Below are positions 35,810 to 46,090 of a stretch of DNA of 64,000 bases, one piece after another. The notes under the pieces are model-generated. The model had not been told where the DNA came from. It searched no databases and saw only the letters and a list, made by a program, of their open reading frames with translations. The stretch is taken from positions 744,001-808,000 of the forward strand of contig NZ_SJER01000001.1 in the NCBI RefSeq assembly GCF_004785955.1, read 5' to 3'. Origin of the DNA: Halostella litorea (GTDB taxonomy: Archaea; Halobacteriota; Halobacteria; Halobacteriales; Natronoarchaeaceae). Both the position numbers and the translations under genes were made by a program. The first letter of the stretch is position 1; the number at the start of each line of letters is the position of its first letter.

Positions 35810-36700
35810 ATGCTCGACGAGCTGCTGGGTCGGGCGGCGCTGAAGGACCGCATCGACGAGCTAGAGGAGGAAAAGCGCCACCTTGAGCGACGGCTGGAGG
35901 CCGAATCCGAGCGCCGCGCCGACGCGGTCAGCGCCCGGCAGGACGCCGAACAGCGGGTGAACCGGCTGGAGGACCGGATCGCCGAACTGGAGGACCGCGT
36001 CGAGCGGGCCGGCGACGGCGACGCGGCGGCCGCCGAGTTCCGCGGCGTCGAGGAGCTTCGTGGCGACCGCCTCGCCGCCGTGCTCGACCGCCTCGACAGC
36101 GTCGACGCCGGCGAGGAGGGCGCGATGACGGCGATGGTCGGCGACGAGGTACCGGCGGCCGTCCGCGAGGCGTTCGGCGACCGCGCCGCGCTGGTCGACC
36201 GGGCCAGCCCCTGCCTCGCGGTGACCGACGACGCCGGCCTCGTGAGCGCCGCGCTCGCGCCGCCGGTCGCGCCGGCCGCCTTCGCGGCGTGGGACGACGG
36301 CTTCCGGGTCGAGCGGGAGTGGTTCCTGCCGACCGGCGAGTTCGCGTTCGCGCTCGTCCGCTCGGATCTGTTCGCGCTGGGCGAGTACGACGGCCGCGAG
36401 CGCACCGCGACGACGGCGTTCGAGAGCGACGTGAAGGGGAGCCACTCGAAGGGCGGCTTCTCGCAGGCCCGCTTCGAGCGCCGGCGGGACGAGCAGGTCG
36501 CCGAGCACGTCGAGCGCTGCGAGGCGGCGCTCGCCGACCGCGACGCCGACCGGCTGATACTCGTGGGCGAGCACACCGTGCTGGACGACGTCGACGCCGA
36601 GGCGGCGGCGACCGCCGCCGTGGATGCGACCGGCGACCCCGAGGACGCGCTGGACGAGGCGTTCTACGACTTCTGGACGACGACGCTGTACCGGCTGTAG
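35810..36700 (+). CDS. Vms1/VLRF1-family peptidyl-tRNA release factor-like protein
   Basis: 296 residues. The first 75 form a coiled coil (DRIDELEEEKRHLERRLEAE). The C-terminal part is a VLRF1-type domain: EFAFALVRSDLFALGEYDGR and then the release-factor-like loop GSHSKGGFSQARFERRRDEQ, with the putative catalytic Gln at position 219. The final part is a Rossmann-like segment, ADRLILVGEHTVLDDVDAEA. In yeast Vms1 and human ANKZF1 a Gln in an equivalent loop cleaves peptidyl-tRNA on stalled 60S subunits (ribosome quality control). Haloarchaeal homologues are known from sequence, with little functional data that I can cite. It precedes the dgcN-like gene by 28 bases. Confidence 0.85.
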   Translation: MLDELLGRAALKDRIDELEEEKRHLERRLEAESERRADAVSARQDAEQRVNRLEDRIAELEDRVERAGDGDAAAAEFRGVEELRGDRLAAVLDRLDSVDAGEEGAMTAMVGDEVPAAVREAFGDRAALVDRASPCLAVTDDAGLVSAALAPPVAPAAFAAWDDGFRVEREWFLPTGEFAFALVRSDLFALGEYDGRERTATTAFESDVKGSHSKGGFSQARFERRRDEQVAEHVERCEAALADRDADRLILVGEHTVLDDVDAEAAATAAVDATGDPEDALDEAFYDFWTTTLYRL

Positions 36701-36728
36701 CGCCCAAATTGCCGAGCGCGCCGCGCTT

Positions 36729-37769
36729 ATGACGGCCCCTGTCCTTGATCCGGGCATGGCTATCGCGATCCTCGCCCACGGGAAGTTCCCCGAGCGCGCC
36801 AAGACGGCGCTCGGCGTCATGCGGTACGGCGACGACGACGTCGCCGCCGTCCTCGACCGCGACCGGGCGGGCGAACGCGTCGCCGACCACGTCGCCGACG
36901 TGCCGGACGCGCCCATCGTCGCGTCGATGGACGACGTCGGCGCGGTCGACGCGCTGCTGATCGGGATCGCGCCGATCGGCGGCGAGTTCGTCGAGTCCTG
37001 GCGGCCGGACGTCCGCGCCGCCCTGGAACGTGGCTGTGACGTGATCTCGGGGCTCCACGACTTCCTCGCCGAGGACGACGAGTTCGCCTCCCTCGCCGCC
37101 GAGCACGGCTGTGATATCTGGGACGTGCGGCGGCCACGCGACGACCTGTCCGTCGCCGAGGGCGTCGCCCGCGAGGTGGACGCCGAGGTGATCCTCACCG
37201 TCGGCACGGACTGCTCGGTCGGGAAGATGACCGCGACGATGGAACTGGCCGCGGCGGCCCGCGAGCGCGGCCACGACGCCGCCGTGATCCCGACGGGCCA
37301 GACCGGGATCATGATCGAGGGGTGGGGGAACCCGGTCGACCGCGTGGTGAGCGACTTCACCGCCGGTGCGGTCGAGGAGATGATAGTCGAGAGGGGCGAC
37401 GAGCACGACTACCTGTTCGTCGAGGGGCAGGCGAGCATCGTCCACCCGGCGTACTCCGCGGTGACCTGCGGCATCCTCCACGGCGCGATGCCGGACGCGA
37501 TGGTGCTGTGTCACCGCGCCGGCCGCGACGTCATCCACGGCTACGAGGAGTTCACGCTCCCGCCGCTGCCGTCGTACGTCGAGCGCTACGAGTCGCTGGC
37601 CGCGCCGGTCCACGGGTCGGCCGTCGTCGCCGGCGCGCTGAACACGATGGACGTCGACGGCGACGACGACGCCCGCGAGGCCGTCCGTGAGTACGGCGAC
37701 GCGCTCGACCTGCCGGTCGCGGACCTCGTCCGGTTCGACCCCGACCTCGTGCTGGAGGCGGTGCTGTGA
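36729..37769 (+). CDS. dgcN: DUF1611 protein, D-glutamate N-acetyltransferase-like (DgcN)
   Basis: 346 residues from the first ATG (the alternative ATG at 36756 begins MAIAILAHGKFPERAKTALG). A Rossmann-like N-terminal domain (IVASMDDVGAVDALLIGIAP) precedes a P-loop domain with TVGTDCSVGKMTATMELAAA (about residues 157-176), followed by PTGQTGIMIEGWGNPVD, LFVEGQASIVHPAYSAVTCG and MVLCHRAGRDVIHGYEEF. The family was formerly DUF1611; bacterial DgcN acetylates D-glutamate and works with the racemase DgcA. Here the next gene is an enolase-superfamily epimerase joined by a GTGA overlap, which matches that pair. Substrate assignment for archaea remains inference. Confidence 0.82.
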   Translation: MTAPVLDPGMAIAILAHGKFPERAKTALGVMRYGDDDVAAVLDRDRAGERVADHVADVPDAPIVASMDDVGAVDALLIGIAPIGGEFVESWRPDVRAALERGCDVISGLHDFLAEDDEFASLAAEHGCDIWDVRRPRDDLSVAEGVAREVDAEVILTVGTDCSVGKMTATMELAAAARERGHDAAVIPTGQTGIMIEGWGNPVDRVVSDFTAGAVEEMIVERGDEHDYLFVEGQASIVHPAYSAVTCGILHGAMPDAMVLCHRAGRDVIHGYEEFTLPPLPSYVERYESLAAPVHGSAVVAGALNTMDVDGDDDAREAVREYGDALDLPVADLVRFDPDLVLEAVL

Positions 37770-38806
37770 CGCTCTCGACCTCGTTCGAGCGGCTTGAACT
37801 GCCGCTGGAGACGCCCTTTACCATCGCCCGCGGCACGCAGACCGTCTCGGAGAACGTGGTCGTCCGGGTCGAGGACGGCGACGGCCGCGTCGGCGTCGGC
37901 GGCGCGGCCCCCGCCAGGCACTACGGCGAGACCGCCGACACCGTCGAGGCGGTCCTCCCGGACCTGCTCGCGGTCGTCGAGGAGGTCGGGGACCCCCACC
38001 AGCTCCGCCGGATCGAACGCCGCATGCGGGAGGTCGTGCGGGACAACCCCGCCGCGCGCTGTGCCGTCAGCGTCGCCCTCCACGACCTCGTCGCCAAGCG
38101 CGCGGACCTGCCGCTGTACCGGTACTGGGGGCTGGACCCGGAGCGGACCGTCCGCACCTCCTTCACCGTCGGGCTGGACGACCCCGACCGGATGCGCGAG
38201 AAGGCGGCCGACGCTGTCGACGCCGGCCACGGGGTGCTGAAGGTGAAACTCGGCACCGACCGCGACGAGGCGGTCGTCGACGCGGTACGCTCGGCGGCCC
38301 CCGACGCGCGGATCCGCGTCGACGCCAACGAGGCGTGGACGCCCCGCGAGGCCGTGCGGATGTCCGAGACCCTCGCCGACTACGGCGTGGAGTTTATCGA
38401 ACAGCCGGTGCCGGCCGAGAACCCGGAGGGCTTGCGGTTCGTCCACGAGCGGTCGGCGCTGCCGGTCGCCGCCGACGAGTCCTGCGTGACGCCCGACGAC
38501 GTGCCGCGGGTCGCCGACCGGACCGACATCGTCACGATCAAGCTGATGAAATGCGGCGGCCTCGCCGAGGCGCGGCGGATGATCCACGCCGCACGCGTCC
38601 ACGGGCTGGAGGTGATGCTCGGCTGCATGGTCGAGAGCAACGCCTCCATCGCGGCGGCCGCCCACCTCGCGCCGCTGCTCGACTACGCGGATCTTGACGG
38701 CTCGCTGCTGCTCGACCGGGACCCGTTCGACGGCGTGTCGCTGCCCGACGGCGTGATCGACCTCGCCGCCCTCGCCCGCCCGGGGACCGGCGCGGTCGAG
38801 CGGTGA
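37766..38806 (+). CDS. dgcA: Enolase-superfamily epimerase, DgcA/dipeptide epimerase-like
   Basis: 346 residues in the muconate-lactonising subgroup. The start is a GTG overlapping the stop of the dgcN-like gene. The capping domain (LELPLETPFTIARGTQTV) is followed by the barrel. Catalytic lysines occur in VLKVKLGTDRDE (KxK) and in VTIKLMKCGGLAEARRM. Metal ligands are RVDANEAWTP (Asp), FIEQPVPAENPEGL (Glu) and AADESCVTPDDV (Asp). The C-terminal MLGCMVESNASIAAAAHL is characteristic. Such enzymes epimerise Ala-Glu dipeptides or racemise N-acetyl-glutamate; the pairing with DUF1611 favours N-acetyl-glutamate racemisation. Confidence 0.87.
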   Translation: MTLSTSFERLELPLETPFTIARGTQTVSENVVVRVEDGDGRVGVGGAAPARHYGETADTVEAVLPDLLAVVEEVGDPHQLRRIERRMREVVRDNPAARCAVSVALHDLVAKRADLPLYRYWGLDPERTVRTSFTVGLDDPDRMREKAADAVDAGHGVLKVKLGTDRDEAVVDAVRSAAPDARIRVDANEAWTPREAVRMSETLADYGVEFIEQPVPAENPEGLRFVHERSALPVAADESCVTPDDVPRVADRTDIVTIKLMKCGGLAEARRMIHAARVHGLEVMLGCMVESNASIAAAAHLAPLLDYADLDGSLLLDRDPFDGVSLPDGVIDLAALARPGTGAVER

Positions 38807-39109
38807 TCAGTCGGCGGGGTCCCGGACCACGACCGCGTCCGCCGACGCGGTCACCAGCAGTTCGGCGTACCGGAACCGTACCGTCGCGGCCCGCACGACG
38901 CTGTCCAGCGCGTCCGGGTCGACCCAGTCGAACAGCGGCGGCAGGTCCGTCGGGTCGACGTTCCGTGCCTCGGCGAGCGCCGCGACGACCGCCGCGCTCG
39001 CCGTCTCGTAGCTCTCCGGGTCGCCTATCCGCGCTCGCTCCGTGCTTGCCGGTTCGTCCGGGTCATCCTCCCCTCGCCCTCGGTTCGTCGCCTGTCGTTT
39101 CACGGTCAT
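38807..39109 (-). CDS. HalOD1 output-domain protein
   Basis: 100 residues with one HalOD1 domain. Matching regions are ASAAVVAALAEARNVDPTDL, PLFDWVDPDALDSVVRA, and the last strands FRYAELLVTASADAVVVRD. The N-terminus is basic (MTVKRQATNRGRG). It follows the HTH regulator gene at 39831-39148 on the same strand, with a 38-base gap, so the two may be co-transcribed. That pairing hints that this domain works with transcription control, which is inference. Its stop sits right beside the stop of dgcA (convergent). Confidence 0.8.
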   Translation of the reverse strand: MTVKRQATNRGRGEDDPDEPASTERARIGDPESYETASAAVVAALAEARNVDPTDLPPLFDWVDPDALDSVVRAATVRFRYAELLVTASADAVVVRDPAD

Positions 39110-39147: not shown

Positions 39148-39831
39148 CTACCCGTGAGTATTCACGCTGTTTAAGTCCCCCTGCCCCTCCCCCTGGGCGA
39201 TCGTCGCGCGGACGAGGTTCGCGTACCCGCGGCGGAGCCGGGTCGACAGCGCGGTGTCGGAGATGCCCAGTTCCGCCGCCACGGCCGCGAGGTTCGACTC
39301 ACGCGGGACGGCGAAGTAGCCCGCCCGGAGGGCGGCGAGCAGCGCCTCGCGCTGGTCGGCGGTGACGCCGTACTGTTCGAACTCCGCGGGGTCGCCCGGG
39401 CGGTAGAGGCGGTCGGCGTCGAACGCGAGGCCACAGCGCTGTGCGTACTCGTGGAACGTCGAGAGGGCCTCGCCGTCGGGAAACAGCAACCGGACGTGCC
39501 ACTCCTCGTCCGCCGACGCGTTCAGCAGGGTCGCCAGCGACTCCGCGATGGCGTAGACCACCCCGTGTTCCGGCGCGTGCCAGTCCACCCGGTAGAGGCG
39601 CTCGCGCTCGTTGTCCTCCAACAGGTGCGGGTCCCGCGCCGTGCCGTCCTCCCGGAGCGCCTCGTCGAACGCGTCCAGGTCGTCCGCGGTCACCCAGAAG
39701 TACGGCGTCACGTGGTCCTCGCCGGTCGCCGCGACGCGCTCCACCTCGACCTGCGCATCGTCGACGGAGTGCAGCGAGTGCGCGAGCACGAACTCCGCTG
39801 GGGGCACTCGCAGATCAGCGATGACTGTCAT
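39148..39831 (-). CDS. Bat-type HTH-10 transcriptional regulator
   Basis: 227 residues in the bacterioopsin-activator-like family. The N-terminal sensor-like part is MTVIADLRVPPAEFVLAHSL (the usual start of this family), with VEVERVAATGEDHVTPYFWV. The C-terminal HTH (about 165-220) is TADQREALLAALRAGYFAVP, then LAAVAAELGISDTALSTRLR and NLVRATIAQ. Haloarchaea carry many such regulators, often controlling nearby genes. The region before its ATG is short, and the HalOD1 gene follows it. The regulated target is not evident. Confidence 0.88.
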   Translation of the reverse strand: MTVIADLRVPPAEFVLAHSLHSVDDAQVEVERVAATGEDHVTPYFWVTADDLDAFDEALREDGTARDPHLLEDNERERLYRVDWHAPEHGVVYAIAESLATLLNASADEEWHVRLLFPDGEALSTFHEYAQRCGLAFDADRLYRPGDPAEFEQYGVTADQREALLAALRAGYFAVPRESNLAAVAAELGISDTALSTRLRRGYANLVRATIAQGEGQGDLNSVNTHG

Positions 39832-39869: not shown

Positions 39870-41453
39870 CTACGGCAGCGGCCGGTCGCCCAGTCGCGCC
39901 GGCAGCGGCCGCCGCCGCGAGGGGTGTCCCGCCGTCGCCTCGCCGACGGCCGCTGCCAGCGCCGCGACGGTCATCGCCGTCTCGCGGCCGGTGGCCCGCT
40001 CGGTCACGGGGAGCGCGTCGCCGTCGGCTTCCCGGTCGCCGACGACGGCGTAGTACGGGACCGCCTCGCGCTCGGCCAGCGCGAGGCGCTCGCCGACGGT
40101 CGCCTCGCGGTCGTCGACGTCCGCCCGCACGCCAGCCTCCGCGAGCGCCGACACGGCCGCTTCACAGCGGTCGACGCGGCCGGGGTCGACGGGGACGAGT
40201 CGCACCTGCGTCGGCGCGAGCCACGTCGGGGGGCCGTCGCCGGCGGCCAGCGCGCGGACCGCGGCGTCGAGCGGGCCGACGGGCGAACACCGGACGGCCG
40301 GCCGCGACGGCGCGCCGGCGTCGTCCGCCGACGCCGCCCGCGGCGGGTCGTACCTGACGCCGGCGGTCCGTACGGCCCGCCCGTCGACGGTGACGACGAA
40401 GTCGAGCGCGACCGACCAGCGGCCGGGGCGGAGCGGGAGCGTCTCCGCGAGCACCGGCGTGCCGAGTGCGGCGGCGACGGCCTCGGGCGGGACCGCGTCC
40501 GCCCCCTCTACGTGGCGGACCACCGGGACGGCGTCGACCCCCATCTCGGCGACAGCGTCCCGGGCCAGCGTCGCCGCGCGCTCGAACGCCGTCCGCGCGC
40601 CCGCCGCGTCGGCAGCCACGACAGTCATCTCCGGCGTCGCGGCCGGGGACGCCCCTCGACGCTCGCGGACGCGGAGGGGGAGGTCCGAACCGTCGAGGTC
40701 GCCCGCCGACGCCGCGGCGCGGCCGGCCGCGCCCCGTCCGTCATTCCCGCTTGTCGCCACGGGCACCGCGCCAGCCTCGGCCAGCAGGTCGTCTGCGTAG
40801 TCGGCCAGCGTGTCGGCGACGAACGCGCCCCGCGGGAGCCACGTCCGGTCGGCGTCCGCCTCACCTTCCCCGCCGGCGACGAACCCCAAGTCGCGCAGGC
40901 GGTCCTCGCCCGGCGGGGCCGCGGCCGACCCGGGACGGTCTGCGGCCGCGACGGCCCGGGTCGCGTCGGCGGCCGCGTCGATCGGTCGCCGCTCGCCCGC
41001 CGGCGTGACGACGGTCCGGTCGCTCGGGGGGCGGGGGGAGCCGTCGCCCGGCCCGGTCCGCAGGCTGCCGACCGCGAGCGGGTGGCCGCGCCAGGCCACC
41101 TCGCCGGCGACGCCCCCGACGGGGGCCCGCAGGACCTCGTAGTCCGAGAGCGGGGCGACGAGGGCGTCAAGCAGCGTCGCGGCGGCCCCGTCGTCGGCCG
41201 GGTCGTCGACCAGGGCCGGACACGGGCTGACGGCGATCCGGTCGACGCCGAGGCGGTCCACGGCGGACCGGAGTTCGTCGGCCGCGTCGGCCGCGACGGC
41301 GTCCGGGGCCGCGGCGTCGCCGGGTTCGACGGCGACGAACGCCGCGACGCAGTCGGCCAGTTCGTCGCCCGCGTCGTCGCGGGCCGCCCCGTCGCCCGCC
41401 TCGCGCGTCGACTCGAACGCCGCGCGGTCCGCGTGGGCGTACAGCAGTCGCAT
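39870..41453 (-). CDS. Threonyl-tRNA synthetase-derived protein without catalytic core
   Basis: 527 residues. The first about 150 match the archaeal ThrRS editing domain: MRLLYAHADRAAFES, LADCVAAFVAVEPGD, VDRIAVSPCPALVDD and WRGHPLAVGSLRTG. The end (about 405-527) is the anticodon-binding domain: PPTWLAPTQVRLVPVDPGRV, VRADVDDREATVGERLALAE, AVPYYAVVGDREADG and HPSRRRPLPARLGDRPLP. The middle 250 residues show only faint remnants (LPLRVRERRGASPAATPEMT, SVALDFVVTVDGRAV). The zinc ligands and motif 2 of ThrRS cannot be found; for example, the HRAILGSLERF region reads VRCSPVGPLDA. It is likely a trans-acting editing or tRNA-binding factor. Confidence 0.75.
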   Translation of the reverse strand: MRLLYAHADRAAFESTREAGDGAARDDAGDELADCVAAFVAVEPGDAAAPDAVAADAADELRSAVDRLGVDRIAVSPCPALVDDPADDGAAATLLDALVAPLSDYEVLRAPVGGVAGEVAWRGHPLAVGSLRTGPGDGSPRPPSDRTVVTPAGERRPIDAAADATRAVAAADRPGSAAAPPGEDRLRDLGFVAGGEGEADADRTWLPRGAFVADTLADYADDLLAEAGAVPVATSGNDGRGAAGRAAASAGDLDGSDLPLRVRERRGASPAATPEMTVVAADAAGARTAFERAATLARDAVAEMGVDAVPVVRHVEGADAVPPEAVAAALGTPVLAETLPLRPGRWSVALDFVVTVDGRAVRTAGVRYDPPRAASADDAGAPSRPAVRCSPVGPLDAAVRALAAGDGPPTWLAPTQVRLVPVDPGRVDRCEAAVSALAEAGVRADVDDREATVGERLALAEREAVPYYAVVGDREADGDALPVTERATGRETAMTVAALAAAVGEATAGHPSRRRPLPARLGDRPLP

Positions 41454-41509
41454 AGTCGAGCAACCCGTCCGGCGGGCAAAAGGGTGCCGACGGCGGGCGG
41501 ACCGCGCCG

Positions 41510-41695
41510 CTACGCCTCCGCGGGCGGCCTGCGGAAGACGAACACCACCGTCGACGAGTCGACGACGAACGTCCGGTCCAGCGCCCAGCCGTCGGCCGCG
41601 CGGTCGTTCAGCAGGCGGTCGAACCGGTCGGCGTCCAGCGAGTTCGGGTAGAGCGACACCACCTCGGTGGCGTACTCGTGGCGAGCGTCCGGCAT
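41510..41695 (-). CDS. Small DUF4177-like protein
   Basis: 61 residues: MPDARHEYATEVVSLYPNSL, a helix around DADRFDRLLNDRAADGWALD, and final strands TFVVDSSTVVFVFRR. This is the beta-alpha-beta2 pattern of DUF4177, where WxL in the middle is typical. The role is unknown. It lies 56 bases before the ThrRS-like gene on the same strand and may be co-transcribed with it. A longer in-frame start 15 bases upstream is possible but less likely. Confidence 0.7.
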   Translation of the reverse strand: MPDARHEYATEVVSLYPNSLDADRFDRLLNDRAADGWALDRTFVVDSSTVVFVFRRPPAEA

Positions 41696-41771: not shown

Positions 41772-42800
41772 ATGGCCGACGAGTCCTCGCCCGCGAACAG
41801 GATGAGCGAGCGAGCGGGGGAGAGCGCGATCAGGCTCCGGGCGCTGATGCATCTCAACCGCTGGGTGATCGTCGGGGCGCTCGCGGCGGCGGTGTTCGTC
41901 GTCCTCGTCGTGCTGGGGACCCTCGACGCGTCGCCGCTCAGGGCGAGCATGCGACAGACCGACCCGGCCGACACCGCGTTCCAGGCGCTGACCACCTCGA
42001 TCATCACGGGCGTGACGCTGGTCGTCACGATCAACCAGGTGGTGCTGTCCCAGGAACTCGGCCCGCTGGGCGACCAGCGGAACCGAATGCAGGGCGCGAT
42101 GGACTTCCGCGGCGACGTGGGGGACGTCATCGGGGCCGCGCCGCCGCCGGAGCCCGCGTCGTTCCTGCAGGCGCTGGTCGAGGCAACGAAAAGCCGGGCG
42201 GAGGCGTTCGAACGGCAGGTATCGGCAGGGTCCGGGGAGGCCCACGGCCGGGTCGCGCGGTACGTCGACGACCTCGTCGAGAACGCCGACGCGGTGTCCG
42301 ACCGTCTGGAGGGCGCGGAGTTCGGCACGTTCGACGTGATAGACGCCGCGCTGGACTACAACTACTCGTGGAAGATCTACGACCTGAACCGGATCCGGCG
42401 GACGCATGGCGACGAGTTCGACCGGGCGACCGGCGAGGCCGCCGAGGACCTGCTGGACGTGCTGACGCTGTTCGGCCCGGCGAGGGAGCACGTGAAGACG
42501 CTGTACTTCCAGTGGGAACTCGTGAACCTCTCGCGGGCGATCATCTACGCGGCCGTCCCGGCGCTGGCCGTGACGCTCTCGTCGCTGCTGTACCTCGACG
42601 CGACGTCGTTCCCCGGCGCGACGCTCGGGGTCGACAACATCGTCCTGGTCGTCTCCGGCGCGACGACCGTCGCCCTGTTTCCGTTCCTGGTCCTCGTGTC
42701 GTTCGTGCTCCGGATCGCCACGACCGCAAAGCGGACCCTCGCCATCGGCTCGTTCATCCTGCGGGAAACCGACCGGTCGGAGACGACTGACGTCGATTAG
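41772..42800 (+). CDS. Hypothetical haloarchaeal membrane protein
   Basis: 342 residues with four helices in two pairs. The first pair is VIVGALAAAVFVVLVVLGTL and FQALTTSIITGVTLVVTINQ. The second pair is LSRAIIYAAVPALAVTLSSL and IVLVVSGATTVALFPFLVLV, followed by a third segment SFVLRIATTAKRTLAIGSFI. Between them is a large cytosolic part (about 100-245) with LVEATKSRAEAFERQVSAGS and YSWKIYDLNRIRRTHGDEFD. The phrase NQVVLSQELGPLGDQRNRMQ after the second helix is distinctive. I do not recognise the family. The gene converges with pspA. Confidence 0.7.
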   Translation: MADESSPANRMSERAGESAIRLRALMHLNRWVIVGALAAAVFVVLVVLGTLDASPLRASMRQTDPADTAFQALTTSIITGVTLVVTINQVVLSQELGPLGDQRNRMQGAMDFRGDVGDVIGAAPPPEPASFLQALVEATKSRAEAFERQVSAGSGEAHGRVARYVDDLVENADAVSDRLEGAEFGTFDVIDAALDYNYSWKIYDLNRIRRTHGDEFDRATGEAAEDLLDVLTLFGPAREHVKTLYFQWELVNLSRAIIYAAVPALAVTLSSLLYLDATSFPGATLGVDNIVLVVSGATTVALFPFLVLVSFVLRIATTAKRTLAIGSFILRETDRSETTDVD

Positions 42801-42809
42801 CCGGGGCGG

Positions 42810-43667
42810 CTACCCCTCCTCGCTTTTGATGTCCTCCAGTTCCGCCTCGACCTCCGACTCGTCGACGTCCACGTCGACCTCGCCGCCGCCCTCGGTCTCG
42901 AACTCGACGTCCTCTTCGGTTTCGCTCGCCCCCTCGGCGTCGCTCGCGTCGGCGTCGCCGGCGGCCTCCTCGGCGTCCATCTCGGCTTTCAGCGTGTCGA
43001 GTTCGGCGTCGACCTCGCCGGTCGTCCGTACCTCCTCCAGTTCGCGGTCGAGCTGGTCCTTGTCCGAGAGGGCGTCCTCGAACACCCCCTCGTCCTGTAG
43101 CTCGTCCATCGCGGCCGAGCGGGCCTCCATCTCCTGGGTCCGGTCCTCCGCGCGCTCGATGGCCCGGCCCACGTCCTCCATCTCGTCGCCCGCGCCGGTC
43201 ATCGCCTCGGAGACGCGGGCGCTGGCCTCGGCGGCCTCGTAGCGCGCCTTCATCGTCTCCTTCTTGGTGCGGAACTCCTCGATGCGTTGCTGGAGCGTCT
43301 CCTTCTTCTCGACGAGGTTGTCCTGGGTCCGCTGGAGGTCGGCGATCTGGTTCTCCAGCTCCTCGATCTGGGTCATCTTCGCCTTCTTCTTCTCCAGGGC
43401 CCGGCGCGCGAGGTCGTCGCGGTCCTGCCGGACGGCCTCGCGGGCCTGCTCGTTGTGCTTGTCGACGTTCTCCTCCAGCCGGCGCTTTTGCATCTCCAGG
43501 CGCTTCTTCTGGGTCGTCAGGTCGGCGATCCCGCGTTTCACGTCCTGTAGCTCGTCACGTAGCTGCTCGTAGGAGTAGTCGAGCGTCTCCGTCGGGTCCT
43601 CGGCGCGGTTGAGCACCGCGTTTACCTTCGACCGGATGACGTAGGAGGCCCGCGAGAGTATTCCCAT
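42810..43667 (-). CDS. pspA: PspA/IM30 family membrane-stress protein
   Basis: 285 residues. The amphipathic start is [20 protein letters not shown], then the PspA coiled-coil hairpin (about residues 25-180): [40 protein letters not shown], and [20 protein letters not shown]. Beyond residue 210 the protein becomes very acidic and ends with a Glu/Asp-rich tail ([20 protein letters not shown]). PspA forms membrane-remodelling rods in bacteria (ESCRT-III superfamily). In haloarchaea it has been linked to salt or membrane stress. The gene is divergent from an alpha/beta hydrolase, with one shared AT-rich element between them. Confidence 0.9.
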
Positions 43668-43721: not shown

Positions 43722-44318
43722 ATGGACGCCCTCGTGCCCGGCGGCCGGGACGTGCGCGCGACGCTCGACGAGCCGGACGGCGGCGAGGCGACAGCCTGCG
43801 TCGTCGCCTGCCCGCCCCACCCCCAGCACCGGGGGCACCGCGGCGACCCCCGCCTGACCGCGGTGAGCGACGAACTCGCCGAGCGGGGCGTCGCTTGCCT
43901 CCGGTTCGACTACGGCGACTGGGACGAGGGGTACGGCGAGCGCGAGGACGCGCGCAACGCGGTCCGCTGGGCCGCCGACCGCTACGAGCGCGTCGCGCTG
44001 TTCGGCTACAGCTTCGGCGGCGCGATGGCGCTGCTGGCGGCGGCGTCGGTCGACCGCGAGGTGCGCGCCGTCTCGACGCTCGCGCCCGCGTCGCGGCTGG
44101 CCGACGACCTCGACGCCGCGGCCGCGATGGCGGCCCTCGACTGCCCCGCGCAGGTCGTCTACGGGACGCGCGACGACACGGCCGACCCGGGGCCGGTCGT
44201 CGCGGCCGCCCGCGAGCGCGGCGGCGACGTGGTCGAACTGTCGGCCGACCACTTCTTCGTCGGGAAACACGGCCGGATCGCAACCCTCGTCGCGGACTTT
44301 CTCGCGCCGGAGCTGTAG
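43722..44318 (+). CDS. Alpha/beta hydrolase (dienelactone-hydrolase-like)
   Basis: 198 residues. The oxyanion-region [20 protein letters not shown] is followed by [19 protein letters not shown], the nucleophile elbow [13 protein letters not shown] (Ser near residue 101), the acid in [11 protein letters not shown], and His in [17 protein letters not shown]. The triad is thus complete, and there is no lid insertion, so the protein resembles small alpha/beta hydrolases of the CPPHP subgroup. Substrate unknown; no signal peptide, so cytosolic. It diverges from pspA and precedes pyrG by 86 bases. Confidence 0.85.
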
Positions 44319-44404
44319 GGCGGTTTCCTCGCGCCGGCTTGCGACCGCGTCCCGGGCGTGGCGCGCTCCGAAATCGTTTTGAATCGGGGTTGCGGACGAT
44401 CGGT

Positions 44405-46090
44405 ATGCCGACCGATCCTGAATCCGAATACGACCCCACACTGGGGAACAAGTTCATCTTCGTCACGGGGGGCGTGATGTCCGGGCTCGGCAAGGGGATC
44501 ACCGCCGCGAGCACCGGCCGGTTGCTCAAGAACGCCGGGTTCGACGTGACCGCGGTGAAGATAGACCCGTACCTCAACGTCGACGCCGGGACGATGAACC
44601 CGTACCAGCACGGGGAGGTGTACGTCCTCAAGGACGGCGGGGAGGTCGACCTCGACCTGGGGAACTACGAGCGGTTCCTCGACGAGGACATGACGTTCGA
44701 CCACAACATCACGACCGGCAAGACCTACCAGCACGTCATCGAGAAGGAGCGGGCCGGCGACTACCTGGGTAAGACCGTCCAGATCATCCCGCACATCACC
44801 AACGACATCAAGCGCCGGATCCGCGAGGCCGCCGAGGGCACCGACGTCTGTCTCATCGAGGTCGGCGGCACCGTCGGCGACATCGAGGGGATGCCGTACC
44901 TGGAGGCGCTCCGCCAGTTCGCCCACGAGGAGGAGGACGACGACATCCTCTTTACCCACGTCACGCTCGTCCCGTACTCGAAAAACGGCGAGCAGAAGAC
45001 CAAGCCGACCCAGCACAGCGTGAAGGAGCTTCGCTCCATCGGGCTCCAGCCCGACATCCTGGTCGGCCGCGCCGACGACAAACTCGAACCGCACACGAAG
45101 GAGAAGATCGCCCTGTTCTGTGACGTGCCGACCGACGCCGTCTTCTCGAACCCGGACGTCGAGGACATCTACCACGTCCCGCTGATGGTCGAGGAGGAGG
45201 GCCTCGACGAGTACGTGATGCAGGAACTGGGCCTCGCCGACCGCGCGATCCCGGAGGCCGAGCGGGACAACGAGTGGCGCGAGCTCGTCACCCGGGAGCG
45301 CGAGGACGAGGTCGACATCGCGCTGGTCGGGAAGTACGACCTGGAGGACGCGTACATGTCGGTCAACGAGGCGCTGAAACACGCCGGGCTGGCGAAAGGC
45401 GTCAACGTGAACGTCCAGTGGGTCGACGCGGACGAGATGGTCGACGTGGCGGACGGCGGGAAACACCGCGAGCGCCTCGAAGCCGCCGACGGGATCGTCG
45501 TCCCCGGCGGCTTCGGCTCCCGCGGGACGGAGGGGAAGATCAGCGCCATCCGCTACGCCCGCGAGAACGACGTCCCCTTCCTCGGGCTCTGTCTGGGCTT
45601 CCAGATGGCCGTCGTCGAGATGGCCCGGAACGTACTCGGCTACGAGGACGCCCACAGCGCCGAGATGGACGACGGGACGTCGAACCCCGTCATCGACATC
45701 CTGCCCGAGCAGTACGAGGTGTCGGACATGGGCGGGACGATGCGACTGGGCGCACACCAGACCGACATCACCCCCGGCACGCTCGCCGAGGAGGTGTACG
45801 GCGGCTCCTCCTGTACGGAGCGCCACCGCCACCGCTACGAGGTGAATCCGAACTACTTCGAGGACTTCGCCGAGACCGACCTCGTGTTCTCGGGGCGGGC
45901 CGGCAACCGGATGGAGATCCTCGAACTCGACGGCCACCCGTACTTCCTCGGGACGCAGTTCCACCCCGAGTTCCGCTCGCGGCCGGACCGCGCGTCGCCG
46001 CCGTTCGTCGGCCTCGTCGAGACGGCGATGGAACTCGCCGGGATCGACGGCGCGGACGACGCGGCCGAGGTGAAGGGGGTGGAGGCCTGA
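44405..46090 (+). CDS. pyrG: CTP synthase
   Basis: A 561-residue bifunctional enzyme making CTP from UTP, ATP and Gln. The N-terminal synthase has the ATP-binding [40 protein letters not shown] (metal and UTP), and [20 protein letters not shown]. The C-terminal glutaminase has [13 protein letters not shown], nucleophile Cys in [15 protein letters not shown], and the His-Glu pair in [13 protein letters not shown]. The length is normal. An AT-rich stretch (AAATCGTTTT, about 44371-44380) is about 28 bases upstream. The stop overlaps by one base the start of guaAB, so the two nucleotide-synthesis genes are coupled. Confidence 0.97.

Follow-up and report, generated by a model that had tools for sequence, protein, structure and literature searches.

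A displaced archaeal threonyl-tRNA synthetase retained in haloarchaea without catalytic residues, and its possible role as a tRNA(Thr)-binding protein

With the discovery of crenarchaeal ThrRS-ed (ThrRS-2 in A. pernix), the editing and anticodon-binding domains of an archaeal threonyl-tRNA synthetase (ThrRS) became known in a protein that has no active synthetase core. In the available sections of one study, A. pernix ThrRS-2 is an active editing enzyme (PMC4491819). Duplicates of aminoacyl-tRNA synthetases (aaRSs), including LeuRS-I, SLIMP and HisZ, have been reviewed, and the accessible part of that review describes two that resemble the present case (PMC9437257). LeuRS-I, an archaeal duplicate found in Sulfolobaceae, has disrupted editing, does not aminoacylate, binds its tRNA, and matters for growth; SLIMP, a SerRS-like protein of insect mitochondria derived from a class II aaRS, has lost aminoacylation and retained tRNA binding (PMC9437257). 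ThrRS itself has been put forward as an example of two interchangeable enzyme forms (“homeoalleles”), one of which may be lost after a period of coexistence (PMC3191353). According to the accessible text of that 2011 study, Halobacteriales hold both ThrRS types, with “no single genome” carrying both, and the rare type was assigned among them only to Halorhabdus utahensis; another source, likewise available in part, also places some Halobacteriales in the rare type (PMC4427996).

Here, we describe a gene in a 64,000-nucleotide stretch (the window) of a 3.75 Mb haloarchaeal genome, whose product resembles each of these systems in part. It has the same domain order and predicted core fold as intact archaeal-type ThrRS-R (e.g. 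from Halosimplex pelagicum and Halorhabdus salina), and intact and decayed copies share chromosomal neighbours and a promoter-like element; compared with the intact enzymes, however, the window protein is ~90 residues shorter and lacks motif 2, the zinc ligands, the motif 3 Arg and the editing residues. It differs from the editing-competent ThrRS-2 (PMC4491819) in the loss of the editing Lys and in the predicted folded remainder of the core, and from ThrRS-ed in falling far under the cut-off of the NCBIfam model for Ser-tRNA(Thr) hydrolases. LeuRS-I, in turn, still makes the adenylate and belongs to another class and amino acid, while SLIMP works in a eukaryotic organelle as a heterodimer with SerRS (PMC9437257); tRNA binding by the window protein is putative. 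An equivalent archaeal–bacterial ThrRS heterodimer is unlikely here because the two ThrRS types are distant. The combination that marks a SLIMP-like protein, namely loss of catalytic residues in a protein under selection, was found in the window protein. No description of a decayed haloarchaeal ThrRS form was found in the openly licensed literature searched, as far as the accessible portions of those texts extend. The gene, its parts and its surroundings are as follows.

39870..41453 (stop codon included), minus strand: ThrRS-derived protein without catalytic residues, 527 aa, open reading frame confirmed
41073..41453, minus strand: archaeal ThrRS editing domain (PF08915), residues 1-127, editing-site His and Lys gone
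40239..40916, minus strand: decayed class II core, about residues 180-405, placed by alignment and predicted models
39945..40208, minus strand: anticodon-binding domain (HGTP_anticodon), residues 416-503, best conserved part
41478..41488, minus strand: promoter-like element GGCACCCTTTT, common to intact archaeal thrS genes, ending 24 nt before the start codon
41510..41710, minus strand: small upstream gene, weakly DUF4177-like, in the window's genus only among the loci compared
39148..39831, minus strand: BAT/HTH_10 regulator-like gene, downstream, in 4/5 genomes of the window's genus only
38807..39109, minus strand: HalOD1-domain gene, in 4/5 genomes of the window's genus only
37766..38806, plus strand: mandelate racemase/enolase-superfamily gene, archaeal thrS neighbour in several families
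36624..37769, plus strand: DUF1611 gene, archaeal thrS neighbour in several families
41772..42800, plus strand: 342-aa gene with no confident family assignment, upstream neighbour in several families
42810..43667, minus strand: presumably a PspA-like gene, upstream neighbour in several families
43895..46090, plus strand: open reading frame that we take to contain the CTP synthase gene pyrG, upstream neighbour in several families

An antisense open reading frame of 575 aa (39924-41651, plus strand) also overlaps the gene and is probably an artefact of high GC content.

Both terminal domains scored above their curated Pfam cut-offs. For PF08915, over residues 1-127, E was 9.9e-14 and the score 52 bits (cut-off 30.2); for HGTP_anticodon, over residues 416-503, E was 1.6e-13 and the score 51 bits (cut-off 21). 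These scores rule out a chance match to ThrRS domains, and they bear out the sequence-only reading of a ThrRS-derived protein with archaeal editing and anticodon-binding domains, the motifs quoted for it being present as well. The NCBIfam model of archaeal ThrRS (PRK03991) reached 177 bits against a cut-off of 484 bits, matching in two stretches with the best at 274-525, and the middle of the protein is therefore degraded ThrRS rather than a foreign insert. The Ser-tRNA(Thr) hydrolase model NF011500 gave 65.3 bits, far under its cut-off of 362. Used whole as a query, the window protein found matches in 291/292 genomes; among the matches listed, those outside the 35 genomes with PF08915 span mainly the anticodon domain.

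The earlier claim that the protein has no catalytic core did not hold, given this match at 274-525 and the structure predictions. Built from 20 sequences, a first AlphaFold model reached a mean pLDDT of 82.7, and its residues 181-510 aligned with E. coli ThrRS (VIA Z 26.3, rmsd 4.2, 322 aligned). Eight of the 20 rows in the underlying alignment were intact relatives, and a second model was therefore built from 12 rows, consisting of the window and 11 decayed loci, to exclude a fold borrowed from those relatives. This second model (mean pLDDT 78.5) has nearly the same elements and an equivalent match to E. coli ThrRS (Z 26.0, rmsd 3.5, 322 aligned). Both models place a ThrRS-like core followed by the anticodon domain at about 180-512, so that the class II scaffold is predicted to persist in the decayed protein; an absent core, or a middle consisting of an unrelated insert, is ruled out by the NCBIfam match together with both predicted models. 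PolG2 also appeared among the structural matches (Z about 23), a match that is unspecific because PolG2 has a class II-like fold.

What has been lost are residues, as seen in an alignment of 15 decayed copies with 12 full-length copies from archaeal-only genomes and 8 full-length copies from genomes with both types; the decayed copies of G161 (split between contig ends) and G293 (in-frame stop) lie outside this alignment. We defined as ancestral invariants the 251 positions identical in all 12 archaeal-only enzymes. The window protein keeps 26/52 of these in the editing domain, 14/46 in the linker, 33/119 in the core and 25/34 in the anticodon domain, and core and anticodon domain differ significantly (p = 2e-6). 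Retention by segment peaks in the anticodon domain (0.79 and 0.71); the first editing part follows with 0.67, and the poorest values are those of the zinc/motif 2 part (0.21) and of 263-293 (0.17). The signature motifs have familiar roles in class II enzymes, motif 1 forming the dimer interface. None of the 15 decayed copies has a complete motif 2 RREQ or retains more than two of its four residues, and the stretch is gapped in the window; the C/H/H zinc set of the intact enzymes is complete in 3/15 (G033, G140 and G053) and reads S/T/R in the window. The missing zinc ligands and motif 2 had thus been read correctly from the sequence. The motif 3 Arg remains in 4/15 and is Ala in the window. 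Motif 1 is nearly intact (Pro 15/15, Gly 14/15, Arg 14/15); the window protein is the one decayed copy without its Arg, and keeps the Pro and Gly. The window protein contains no lysine and 23% alanine, and the second-position GC of its gene is 0.61 versus 0.36 for the bacterial thrS, a composition that is strong, GC-driven drift. We regard the protein as almost certainly incapable of aminoacylation.

A separate, normal full-length thrS elsewhere in the genome, as the sequence-only reading had supposed, was found: the same genome encodes a 649-aa bacterial-type ThrRS with editing motifs (HxxxH, CxxxH), zinc ligands and the motif 2 R-x-E, features present in 25/25 bacterial-type thrS compared. 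PF08915 occurs in 35/292 genomes of the class sample, the remaining 257/292 having no PF08915 protein, and in 9/9 genomes of the window's family, two of them new; these two and the 35 class genomes make up a 37-genome set. In this set, 17 genomes combine a decayed archaeal copy with a bacterial ThrRS, 8 combine a full-length archaeal with a bacterial ThrRS, and 12 have a full-length archaeal ThrRS alone (classification of copies leaving out G295). The archaeal editing domain and a bacterial-type ThrRS are therefore found together in 25/37 genomes, and decayed copies are associated with a bacterial thrS (Fisher p = 7e-5, a value that ignores kinship among genomes). The frame is open in 15/17 decayed copies. 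The copy in G293 (L086, L146) is broken by one in-frame TAA, which may be a genuine nonsense change or else an error of the draft assembly, and that in G161 is split between two contig ends; a candidate in-frame stop in G178 was dismissed, as its TAG is by coordinates the gene's own stop codon. A profile built from the decayed copies returned the same 35/292 genomes as PF08915, and a DNA pattern for the WLAPTQVR stretch yielded no further decayed copy, its match in G213 proving not to be one. The plasmid search gave partial ThrRS matches only, with 0/25 records covering 80%.

Two clearly distinct groups of bacterial-type ThrRS are seen in haloarchaea (25 genomes), marked by NCPGH/RKEQ and NCANH/RNE, the latter with 57-62% identity to the bacterial enzyme of the window's genome; this suggests more than one acquisition. 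In G070 and G125 (L124, L125), bacterial and archaeal thrS adjoin on opposite strands, a possible trace of the beginning of a replacement.

Decayed copies occupy the locus of intact archaeal thrS in 6/7 genera. The neighbours common to intact and decayed copies, in whole or in part, are the 342-aa, PspA-like, hydrolase and CTP synthase genes on one side and the enolase-superfamily and DUF1611 genes on the other. Each of the three genera in the window's family has them (g2 without the downstream pair), as do g68/g73 and f8 (G070 and G125, intact). The g16 copies of G146, G171, G273, G175 and G161 have the downstream-side neighbours only, and the intact copies of G050, G198, G160 and G274 the upstream-side neighbours only; none of the shared neighbours were found at G024, G117 and G267 (the last two Halovenus-type) or at the intact copies of G276, G002 and G119. 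The small upstream gene lies on the same strand, as described, but its DUF4177 match is weak (E 0.03, 15 bits, cut-off 25). As a candidate operon partner outside this genus it was rejected, being present in 5/5 genomes of the genus and at 0/25 other loci (E 1e-3).

A GCACnCTTTT element ends 24-26 nt before the start in 8/12 archaeal-only, 5/8 dual and 7/15 decayed copies, with a looser form in 11/15 decayed copies; read by eye, the exact form is present at 1/7 further named decayed loci (L216). It was found upstream of 0/25 bacterial thrS genes. A position ~25 nt before the start fits a leaderless haloarchaeal promoter, and we infer that the element is one. The form GGCACNCTTTT occurs at 4 sites genome-wide (2 for a reversed control pattern) and once within the window, where 0.05 sites are expected. 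Two of the other three genome sites precede open reading frames, which we take to be Trm112-like (L239) and primase-like (L240); elements of this type are perhaps a promoter class of housekeeping genes.

To what extent the decayed gene is constrained can be seen from its substitutions. Decayed comparisons gave dN/dS values of 0.32-0.55 (G117-G267, 0.47), apart from G024-G175 at 0.81; the corresponding ranges are 0.05-0.09 for archaeal-only copies, 0.11-0.28 for dual copies and 0.05-0.22 for bacterial thrS. Neutral evolution was simulated under four settings, 120 times each, for 7/9 decayed comparisons (six genome pairs, with G293 in two pieces), a set that leaves out G117-G267 and G024-G175. 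The neutral means lay at 1.0-1.7, and in none of the seven comparisons did a simulation reach down to the observed value. The third-position share ranged over 0.43-0.52 in the data, and its simulated means over 0.24-0.32. For the pair that includes the window (G000-G031), dN/dS was 0.45 versus neutral means of 1.2-1.6, and the third-position share 0.49 versus 0.26-0.30. A neutral pseudogene is thus ruled out for the seven simulated comparisons, and the decayed gene evolves under protein-level selection, which is weak by comparison with that acting on intact copies. The anticodon domain had the lowest dN/dS of the four segments in just 4/7 decayed pairs.

Whether decay occurred once or several times is answered differently by trees and by gene order. 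In trees of 35 copies, the 15 decayed ones form a single, fully supported clade nested among the g16 copies, where the ladder of g16 copies starts at the intact G273 and G146, passes G171 and ends at the decayed G175. The group spans all states, since G273 and G146 are intact at the residues checked, G171 has lost the editing Lys, and G175 and G024 are decayed; g16 is Halorussus if G024 is H. marinus. G171 (L119:6375-8240, minus strand), in which the editing Lys is Thr, keeps 102/119 core and 34/34 anticodon invariants beside a bacterial ThrRS, and is apparently an intermediate at an early stage of decay. A single group of all g16 copies is rejected by the AU test (p 2e-4 and 9e-5), while a clade of the window's family stays acceptable (p 0.40 and 0.45). 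Added singly, decayed copies join G171 in 9/10 trees from 606 columns and in 6/10 from 265 columns, in trees whose branches reach 10 changes per site, and very long branches risk false joins. Synteny, on the other hand, argues that the copies of the window's family, g68/g73 and g16 are at the same ancestral locus, and together with the shared upstream element suggests that decay took place in situ in at least two families. A single decayed clade among Halorussus copies conflicts with simple vertical decay in place; either transfer into the locus or attraction of long branches to a sequence already partly decayed could account for the conflict.

The gene product is, to our minds, the displaced native archaeal ThrRS with very little room for doubt; this identity is well supported, and the function we infer. 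The original archaeal thrS, of the “rare” type, would have stayed at its ancestral locus while a bacterial-type ThrRS with its own editing domain took over the charging of tRNA(Thr). The old protein no longer has motif 2, the zinc site or the residues of its editing site, but keeps its predicted fold, the motif 1 Pro and Gly and, best preserved of all, its anticodon domain. Its gene would still be expressed, and the product may dimerise through the kept motif 1, bind tRNA(Thr) through the kept anticodon domain, and help to handle or sense this tRNA, acting, like SLIMP or LeuRS-I, as a factor that chaperones, sequesters or senses it. To this explanation as a whole, of a displaced native ThrRS that is now a non-catalytic, probably dimeric, tRNA(Thr)-binding protein, we assign a probability of roughly 0.5. 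The tRNA(Thr)-binding role taken by itself, judged from sequence comparison, falls just short of an even chance, and a tRNA(Thr)-binding regulator would be the most economical function.

Beside such a tRNA(Thr)-binding regulator, the sequence-only reading had proposed a free-standing proofreading factor that hydrolyses Ser-tRNA(Thr), like crenarchaeal ThrRS-ed, and the retention of both PF08915 and the anticodon domain would be in keeping with it. However, the editing-site Lys (P. abyssi K121) is missing from 15/15 aligned decayed copies, where V, I, L, Y, A or T replaces it. Among 19 loci from named genomes, it is likewise missing in 10/10 decayed ones that cover the domain and kept in 8 intact ones; three of these ten (Halorussus marinus, Halovenus carboxidivorans and SHR40) overlap with the 15 aligned, and a further decayed locus, L207, has the C-terminal part only. 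Since the Lys is missing from every decayed copy compared, trans-editing is unlikely. In the accessible sections of PMC4491819, exchanging this Lys for Met severely impairs the editing domains of three archaeal enzymes. The editing-site His is lost in 8/15 decayed copies, including the window, and kept in 7/15, and replacing it by Ala abolishes activity in P. abyssi yet leaves moderate activity in A. pernix (PMC4491819). The same text holds the tRNA 2′-OH to be the catalytic group in archaeal ThrRS editing domains, reports that the Tyr and Glu mutants Y120A and E134A keep activity, and notes that DTD has Met at the position of the Lys (PMC4491819). Side-chain loss is therefore not automatically fatal to editing, which leaves some room for a hydrolase; taken with the Lys and His losses, the mutant data make loss of Ser-tRNA(Thr) editing likely, not certain. 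The resident bacterial ThrRS, moreover, has its editing motifs in 25/25 genomes, and the hydrolase model falls as far short as noted above (65 bits against 362). From these comparisons the window protein is probably unable to edit Ser-tRNA(Thr), and we consider a proofreading factor very improbable.

The chief rival is a redundant gene on its way out, in which residual selection would act just against harmful variants that misfold or trap tRNA. Slow loss of this kind would fit the GC-driven drift with its absence of lysine and 23% Ala, a dN/dS several-fold over that of intact copies, the in-frame TAA in G293, the patchy occurrence of 15 decayed copies in 292 genomes, and the apparent intermediate G171 with its Lys gone and 102/119 core invariants in place. 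It is less readily reconciled with protein-like substitutions between decayed pairs in 7/7 simulated comparisons, open frames in 15/17 copies (the exceptions being the stop in G293 and the contig-end split in G161), retention in 9/9 genomes of the window's family, and a promoter-like element that persists in about half of the decayed copies; we hold slow loss to be a serious, though doubtful, account. Recruitment of the dead aaRS fold for a task outside translation, as a scaffold or as a regulatory subunit like HisZ or the polymerase gamma accessory subunit, has precedents among aaRS paralogs in the accessible part of PMC9437257, and could draw on the class II fold retained in the predicted models and on their PolG2 match. 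But no conserved partner gene was seen: among the loci compared, the small upstream gene and the downstream regulator are limited to one genus, and the wider neighbours are those of intact thrS too. Such a scaffold therefore seems improbable to us.

Returning to a retained tRNA(Thr)-binding protein, we offer tentatively, and as rather unlikely in this full form, the view that haloarchaea, once or repeatedly, converted their native ThrRS, an essential enzyme that had been displaced, into a conserved protein that binds tRNA(Thr) without catalysis, which would found a new family of translation regulators derived from aaRSs. In a bolder version, the editing domain, with its Lys now mostly hydrophobic, would hydrolyse a different aminoacyl-tRNA. 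Because intact, intermediate and decayed states coexist in g16 (Halorussus), the timing of each loss, and the nature of what remains and the reason for it, are directly testable. For the coexistence of two ThrRS types in one genome, 17/25 dual genomes show a possible sequel, in which the displaced enzyme persists as a decayed protein that is under selection in the pairs examined. If the retained protein does bind tRNA(Thr), it would represent a new class of translation regulator.
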